DNA from: Magnetococcales bacterium
Lineage (GTDB): Bacteria > Pseudomonadota > Magnetococcia > Magnetococcales > DC0425bin3
Assembly (NCBI GenBank): GCA_015228935.1
Contig: JADGCO010000043.1
Coordinates: forward strand, 1 to 35,775
DNA length: 35,775 nucleotides
Direction: 5' to 3'
The notes beneath the pieces were generated by a model. The model ran no database searches, was not told where the DNA came from, and saw nothing but the letters and a program-made list of their open reading frames with translations. Every line of letters starts with the position of its first letter. Positions within the stretch are counted from its first letter, which is position 1. This document shows positions 12,498 through 14,062 of the stretch, in pieces. The position numbers were made by a program, and so were the translations under genes.

Positions 12498-12547
12498 AAA
12501 GCATGATGGCATGGGATTTTGAACCTTTGTCAAGAAGGGAGCTAAAG

Positions 12548-12823
12548 ATGGAACGTGTGACCATCACCTTGCCAAACGATATGGCCGCTACCATCAAGAA
12601 TGCGGTCGAAAGTGGTGACTATGCATCCACAAGCGAAGTCGTGCGTGCAGCACTGCGCGACTGGAAAATGAAACGCACCTTGCATCTTCATGAACTTGCC
12701 GTACTCAAGGCCGATATTGACCTTGGGTTGGCCGATGTGGCGGCGGGTCGTGTGAAAGAATTTGATGCGGCACGCATCATTGAACGAGGAAAGAAGCTAT
12801 TAGCCCGCTCATCCTCCGTCTGA
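12548..12823 (+). CDS. parD: ParD/CopG-family ribbon-helix-helix antitoxin
   Basis: A 91-residue antitoxin. The N-terminal RHH fold is clear: MERVTITLPNDMAATIKNAV forms the DNA-binding strand and first helix, and SGDYASTSEVVRAALRDW the second helix. The C-terminal part (DIDLGLADVAAGRVKEFD) is typical of the toxin-binding segment of ParD. It would neutralise ParE and repress its own promoter. ATG 12548 is preceded by AGGGAG at good spacing. Its stop TGA at 12821-12823 overlaps the toxin reading frame, which begins about 22 bases earlier. Confidence 0.88.
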   Translation: MERVTITLPNDMAATIKNAVESGDYASTSEVVRAALRDWKMKRTLHLHELAVLKADIDLGLADVAAGRVKEFDAARIIERGKKLLARSSSV

Positions 12824-13113
12824 CCGACACAGCAGAAGCTGACCTTGCCGAAATTTGGTCTTTTGTTGCTTCTGAGTCCTCGGAAGCAACCGCAACACGA
12901 TTGCTTGCAAAGATCGAGAATACCAGCCGATTGTTGTTGGAGTTTCCCCTCTCAGGAACGGCGCGAAACCAATTCGCGGCGGGTCTGCGTGTAATACTTG
13001 AGGGCAACTATGCTATTTATTACACGGTGTCCGAAGCGGAACTCGTCATTGTTCGTGTATTGCATGGCGCACGCGACACTGCCACACTGGCCAGACGGGG
13101 AGGGTTCATGTGA
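12799..13113 (+). CDS. parE: ParE-family toxin, apparently starting at ATT
   Basis: A 104-residue RelE/ParE-fold toxin, whose family poisons DNA gyrase or cleaves mRNA. Family signatures span the whole frame: RLTDTAEADLAEIWSFV at the N-terminus, LEFPLSGTARNQF, GLRVILEGNYAIYYTV and VIVRVLHGARD at the C-terminus. Between the in-frame TGA at 12781 and TTG 12901 there is no ATG, GTG or TTG. The first common start, TTG 12901, would delete a third of the fold. ATT 12799 restores the normal family length and has GAGGA at 12786-12790, eight bases upstream. CTG 12820, overlapping the parD stop as CTGA, is the alternative. It either uses a rare start or carries a lost start codon. Confidence 0.78.
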   Translation: MSPLILRLTDTAEADLAEIWSFVASESSEATATRLLAKIENTSRLLLEFPLSGTARNQFAAGLRVILEGNYAIYYTVSEAELVIVRVLHGARDTATLARRGGFM

Positions 13114-13300: not shown

Positions 13301-14062
13301 ATGGATGAGAACCTTGGTATAGTAGAAAGAATCAGGAAGATGGCTTTGGAAATTCTTGATAAAAGCCATAAAGGAAAGAGATTTTCAGAATTAAAAAATG
13401 AGATTATCAAAATTGATCCTTCTCTTAATCACAATACAATTAGAGGCGCAATTTGGAATTTAGATGCCGTTTTTTCGGATAAAGTTTCCAAGCCTGAAAA
13501 AGGTTTATTCATTTTTATTAAGTTTCAAGAAGAATTAAATAAACAGCAGGTTCCAATTAATGTTACGGATATTGAACAAGCAAAAAGAAGAGTTCCTGAA
13601 AGTGATTTTTATGAACCGTTTGCTGATTACCTTGTGGAACTTGAAGAAGTAACGGCTGCTATTAAACTTGGAAGGAATTTGTTTGGAAAAAAATGGGGCA
13701 CTCCAGATGTTATCGGAAAAAAAGAATCAAGACCTAGCGATATAGTCAAGTTCACAACTGAAATTATTTCTGCTGAAATAAAGACAAATACTGATCAATT
13801 GATTACTGCTTTTGGACAAGCGTGTGCATACAAACTTTTTAGTCATAGAGTATATTTGGTTGTTCCTAAACAATTTTCAAATGAAGATAGATCCAGGCTT
13901 GATGCGTTATGTAAAATTTGCGGAATTGGTTTGATTACGTTCGATATGAATTCATCATCTAAGCCTGACTTTAATATTCTGGTTAGGTCTTTAAAACACG
14001 AGCCAGACATGTCATACACAAATGCTAACATGAAAATAATCGAAAAAGATTTATGGTCCTAA
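13301..14062 (+). CDS. Winged-helix plus PD-(D/E)XK-type protein of unknown function
   Basis: A 253-residue protein, not recognised as a named family. Residues 10-75 resemble a winged helix of HARE-HTH type (RIRKMALEILDKSHKGKRF, LNHNTIRGAIWNL). Residues 100-190 resemble a restriction-like nuclease core: GTPDVIG with Asp136, then ISAEIK with Glu159 and Lys161, then a helix FGQACAYKLF and a strand VYLVVP. This suggests a DNA-binding nuclease of defence or mobile-element type. The codon use is strongly AT-rich compared with clpB or tol genes, which points to recent transfer. AAAGGAAAG lies just upstream of ATG 13301. Confidence 0.68.
   Translation: MDENLGIVERIRKMALEILDKSHKGKRFSELKNEIIKIDPSLNHNTIRGAIWNLDAVFSDKVSKPEKGLFIFIKFQEELNKQQVPINVTDIEQAKRRVPESDFYEPFADYLVELEEVTAAIKLGRNLFGKKWGTPDVIGKKESRPSDIVKFTTEIISAEIKTNTDQLITAFGQACAYKLFSHRVYLVVPKQFSNEDRSRLDALCKICGIGLITFDMNSSSKPDFNILVRSLKHEPDMSYTNANMKIIEKDLWS

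Follow-up and report, generated by a model that had tools for sequence, protein, structure and literature searches.

This study concerns a parDE toxin-antitoxin module in a 35,775-nucleotide stretch of DNA from a Magnetococcales bacterium (GenBank assembly GCA_015228935.1, contig JADGCO010000043.1, positions 1 to 35,775 of the forward strand), here called the window, in which the toxin gene parE very probably begins with an AUU codon lying inside the antitoxin gene parD. By sequence, gene order and predicted fold, the module is a ParDE type II system. It resembles those of Mesorhizobium opportunistum (5CEG/6X0A) and the ParD-ParE complex 3KXE in its antitoxin-first operon, its ribbon-helix-helix (RHH) ParD and the fold and sequence of its ParE; what is new is the mode of initiation, the module itself being of a known kind. 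The features of the locus, in window coordinates, are as follows.

12535-12541, plus strand: Shine-Dalgarno (SD)-like site of parD, AAGGGAG, read from the sequence
12548-12823, plus strand: parD antitoxin gene (RHH/CopG-ParD, 91 aa), start ATG; Pfam RHH_1 3e-7, ParD_antitoxin 4e-6
12781-12783, plus strand: TGA in the parE frame, the upstream limit for any parE start, from the sequence
12786-12790, plus strand: SD-like site of parE, GAGGA, inside parD; 8-base gap to ATT, anti-SD duplex -5.9 kcal/mol
12799-12801, plus strand: probable parE start codon ATT; 11 intact relatives and several decayed copies keep ATT, with ATC in the L010 lineage
12799-13113, plus strand: parE toxin gene, 104 aa counted from ATT; PF05016 4.2e-16, AlphaFold2 model with ParE fold
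12799-12823, plus strand: parD/parE overlap, 25 nt, read (C)TA TTA GCC... in parD and ATT AGC CCG... in parE

The open toxin frame and its upstream partner

The parE frame is open from 12784, where its first codon is ACG, to 13110, with the stop codon at 13111-13113, and its product matches Pfam ParE_toxin PF05016 over positions 1-88 of the 89-position profile (4.2e-16). The original prediction, made from the letters of the window, had described a complete ParE domain open from TGA 12781 to the stop at 13113, a usual start codon only a third of the way in, and GAGGA eight bases before ATT 12799 and inside parD; all three descriptions were confirmed, the first in-frame ATG, GTG or TTG being TTG 12901, codon 35 of 104 from the ATT. 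Directly upstream on the same strand lies the RHH antitoxin gene, matched above cut-off by both RHH_1 and ParD_antitoxin. In relatives too parD starts with ATG, mostly 3-6 codons further upstream, and this internal control limits the unusual start to the toxin.

The probable parE start codon in the window and its relatives

To sample relatives, approximately 1,500 genome searches were run, a genome collection was scanned once and 72,556 plasmids were covered. Eleven intact relatives of the window parE were found, 37-78% identical to it and spread over several Proteobacteria, which together with the window gave 12 intact members. These relatives come from an alphaproteobacterial metagenome-assembled genome (MAG; L008, 78%), a MAG labelled as a cyanobacterium (L009, 72%), a Rhodospirillales MAG (L010, 53%), complete plasmid p1 of Azospirillum sp. 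TSH100 (L018, 53%), complete plasmid pTs417 of Thiodictyon syntrophicum (L019, 41%), genomes from the order of G356 (L021, L023, L024 and L028) and further genomes from the class of G356 (L037 and L050). At the position of ATT 12799, L010 carries ATC and the other 11 loci, the window included, carry ATT; ATG was found in none, and chance does not account for the recurrence of the codon. An assembly error is an unlikely cause, because two of the members sit on complete plasmids. The parE frame of L023 (G547:C16) encodes 227 aa, about twice the usual length, as a C-terminal extension or a fusion. Searches around two further member genomes yielded no additional members, and no relatives were found in the phage records and viral contigs searched.

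The start was bracketed without assuming any codon, between the in-frame TGA upstream and the selected codons 10-34 downstream. Codons 10-34 lie past the parD stop and, in the window, before any usual start; they are under strong purifying selection (omega approximately 0.05-0.3 where estimable, in pairs of high synonymous divergence), and they must therefore be translated in the parE frame. Inside this bracket 11 of the 12 intact members have no ATG, GTG or TTG, the exception being L009, and the only near-start codon that all 12 have in common at one position is ATT or ATC. Two members, L023 and L024, have no near-start codon in the bracket besides ATT, which is doubled in L023. An SD-like stretch inside parD is present in every member; its anti-SD pairing ranges from -5.3 to -11.8 kcal/mol, compared with a median of -3.7 in the body of parD. 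The AlphaFold2 model of ParE translated from the ATT (pLDDT, the predicted local distance difference test score, 80.5) shows the ParE fold with residues 5-8 forming strand 1, and its best Foldseek matches are chains of ParDE complexes, with TM (template modelling) scores of about 0.8.

Taken together, these comparisons make AUU (ATT 12799) very probably the start codon of parE. The proposal of ATT initiation in the original prediction is thus supported, since the codon is conserved at the site and parE is intact, with purifying selection acting on the codons ahead of 12901; homologues with ATG beside a decaying parE in the window, the situation that would have spoken against it, were not seen. 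CTG 12820, which had been named for comparison in reporter fusions, did not hold up as a start, its place being taken by TTA, ATA, CTA or ATT in relatives. Likewise, ATC 12811, AGG and ACG were rejected, as none is conserved across all members. It had also been anticipated that gene callers would truncate the toxin, and this was borne out in the Prokaryotic Genome Annotation Pipeline (PGAP) models of both plasmid genes, which place the start (TTG and ATC) 23 codons too far downstream. As deposited in databases, the toxins would accordingly lack their N-terminal part, with gene finders missing a conserved ATT start.

Other ParE homologues examined have a usual ATG, GTG or TTG start, whereas the window and its relatives have AUU or AUC within a 19-28 nt overlap. 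In the ParEs outside the group, the usual start lies at most a few codons from the matching position, except in L041 and L051, where the nearest ATG lies about 10 codons upstream. A protein tree built without the start codon, of low resolution at 97 columns, strongly clustered the 12 ATT/ATC rows. The tree holding them together scored a higher likelihood than the free tree, which needs two changes owing to the long branch of L051, and a single clade fits the data (approximately unbiased test, p = 0.61), its monophyly being unproven. Judged from these alignments, the whole clade has long had its non-AUG start, a point that the original prediction had not seen.

Decayed copies retain the codon as well: ATT in L031 and in L006, and ATC in L029. 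L006, in the genome of the window itself (C29:23254-23319, minus strand), is a short remnant of a second such parE; it reads ACC ATT GGC CCG CTC GTT CTT CGT and has an overlapping tail that resembles parD. In L075 (G471:C127:1404-1673) an orphan antitoxin was observed, a parD of the clade that has retained ATTAGCC and lost its downstream parE.

Coding constraint from parD and competing explanations

The phase between the parD and parE frames is identical in all members, and the overlap measures 19-28 nt. Across the site parD reads xxA TTA, or xxA TTG in L037 and CAA TCC in L010, so that the A of the site is the third base of a parD codon (CTA, TTA, GCA, CAA, AAA or AGA). An A follows the site in 11 of 13 loci; with ATG the parD codon there would become TGA, and with ATA it would become TAA, cutting parD 7-8 codons short. 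ATT and ATC are the sole AUN codons that leave parD open in those loci, and they are the ones observed. An overlapping antitoxin frame, a factor that the original prediction had likewise not noted, can thus forbid AUG at a toxin start, and a near-cognate start would settle the coding conflict by preserving both the toxin start and the antitoxin tail. In more distant parDE loci (L081, L082, L086, L088 and L089) the genes overlap by ATGA, in the same phase as the clade overlap. It is possible that the clade arose from such an overlap by a single G-to-T change (TGA to TTA, ATG to ATT), which would have lengthened ParD and, in the same step, weakened the parE start. We put this origin forward as an unproven hypothesis, because no ATGA outgroup adjoins the clade.

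A downstream start, at TTG 12901, would give a 70-aa product. This codon is the first usual start in frame, and automatic annotation of the relatives makes a similar choice (TTG or ATC, 23 codons in). Such a start is nevertheless highly improbable, as the first usual start varies from 5 to 62 codons in among the relatives, the strongly selected codons 10-34 lie upstream of it, and its product would begin within helix 2, with strand 1, helix 1 and part of helix 2 gone; TTG 12901 was rejected on the grounds of selection and of the ParE fold. Equally hard to credit is that the start has been lost and the window parE is a decaying relic. Decayed relatives do occur (L029, L031, L032 and L075), and the relic L006 lies in the same genome, but the window gene is intact, selection acts on its codons ahead of any usual start, and 12 intact and diverged copies, two of them on complete plasmids, share this non-AUG codon. 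A -1 ribosomal frameshift from parD, yielding a ParD-ParE fusion, would fit the common frame relation and is very unlikely all the same: a slippery heptamer (X XXY YYZ) occurs in the overlap of L009 only (1 of 12 members), an SD-like stretch at the spacing of a start is retained in its place, and ordinary ATGA overlaps have this phase too.

More serious is the possibility that AUU is indeed the start but is kept only for the coding of the antitoxin tail, low toxin output being a tolerated side effect. The loss of parD reading by ATG or ATA in 11 of 13 loci, where only ATT or ATC occurs, speaks for it. On the other hand, the parD tail varies between 5 and 8 codons and is mostly set by the parE codons, which makes its own value doubtful. 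In L010, where the next base is C, and in L037, where it is G, an ATG would spare parD, yet the codon stays ATC or ATT, a hint that weak initiation itself is under selection. We consider the side-effect explanation the less likely one, although it deserves to be kept in view. Conservation of ATT as parD coding and nothing else was rejected: the A ends codons for five amino acids (L, A, Q, K and R), and the Leu at the site is written TTA in 11 of the 12 Leu-bearing loci, a codon that is rare in the sampled hosts (4.1% of Leu codons in the window sample, 0.5% in Azospirillum and 4.5% in Thiodictyon).

Three observations weigh against initiation at a conserved and selected AUU, and a fourth against the proposed origin. 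L009 has a GTG, absent from the other members, that lies five codons downstream and could serve as the start; the SD pairing of the window copy is among the weaker ones; ATTA persists in L075 although parE is gone, so that conservation of the ATT could partly reflect lag or parD coding; and the sampled homologues include no ATGA relative, within the clade or adjoining it, that would prove the origin from such an overlap.

Weak initiation as a proposed control of toxin dosage

Under AUU initiation, 30S subunits would be recruited by the SD within parD and would then initiate inefficiently at AUU, using initiator tRNA, so that a single mRNA would yield less ParE than ParD; ribosomes translating parD may help to expose the start site. 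The low efficiency of AUU and AUC is proposed to arise because initiation factor 3 (IF3) discriminates against them. IF3 acts against AUU, AUC and GUC starts (PMC5472188, PMC4611024), and AUU, AUC and AUA are discriminated against by it (PMC4611024); in E. coli, AUU also ranks among the top seven start codons by strength (PMC12350097). The clade ParE would most likely be a translationally throttled toxin, plausibly sensitive to IF3 as infC and sigR are, and dosage control of ParE through a weak start, the idea raised in the original prediction, is plausible. Selection for low toxin output appears somewhat more probable than the contrary. If so, the clade would offer a natural case in which a weak start serves to keep a toxin less abundant than its antitoxin.

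The IF3 level may further modulate the ParE:ParD ratio, and IF3 could act in this way on the toxin-antitoxin balance, although a role of IF3 as a signal for parE is put forward tentatively. Equally speculative is an IF3-sensing toxin-antitoxin clade, in which a drop in free IF3 relative to 30S would raise ParE relative to ParD. Were this true, toxin release would be linked to the state of the translation machinery, and the overlapping antitoxin frame would hinder reversion of the codon to ATG.

To our knowledge, well-documented bacterial AUU or AUC starts are very few (infC and pcnB), and no AUU- or AUC-started type II toxin was described in the open-access papers searched, a coverage that leaves most subscription papers outside. 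The infC gene of E. coli and pcnB start with AUU (PMC4245954), and infC is autoregulated through its ATT or ATC start, ATC being used in Streptomyces (PMC5472188). Like them, the clade parE has a conserved AUU or AUC start, of the codon class that IF3 discriminates against; they are housekeeping genes, whereas parE encodes a toxin. In Streptomyces the GTC start of sigR is repressed by IF3, which holds the sigma factor below its anti-sigma factor (PMC5472188). The clade parE shares with infC and sigR a conserved near-cognate start, the lack of an available usual start and an SD-like stretch at start distance. With sigR it further shares a weak start that would hold one partner below its co-encoded inhibitor, and misannotation in genomes; sigR differs in belonging to a sigma/anti-sigma pair rather than a toxin-antitoxin system and in its GTC codon.

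Downstream of parE, an open reading frame of about 252 aa (window 13304-14062) has no Pfam match. The infC gene of the window's own genome (L097, C100:4835-5089, minus strand) has no usual start beside its SD, and ccGGAGGGAacagccATAagc suggests an ATA start. On Azospirillum plasmid p1, a copy of infC (L098:34299-34763 = NZ_CP039640.1:314298-314762) lies about 9 kb from the AUU-started parE, and its annotated ATG start also looks truncated.
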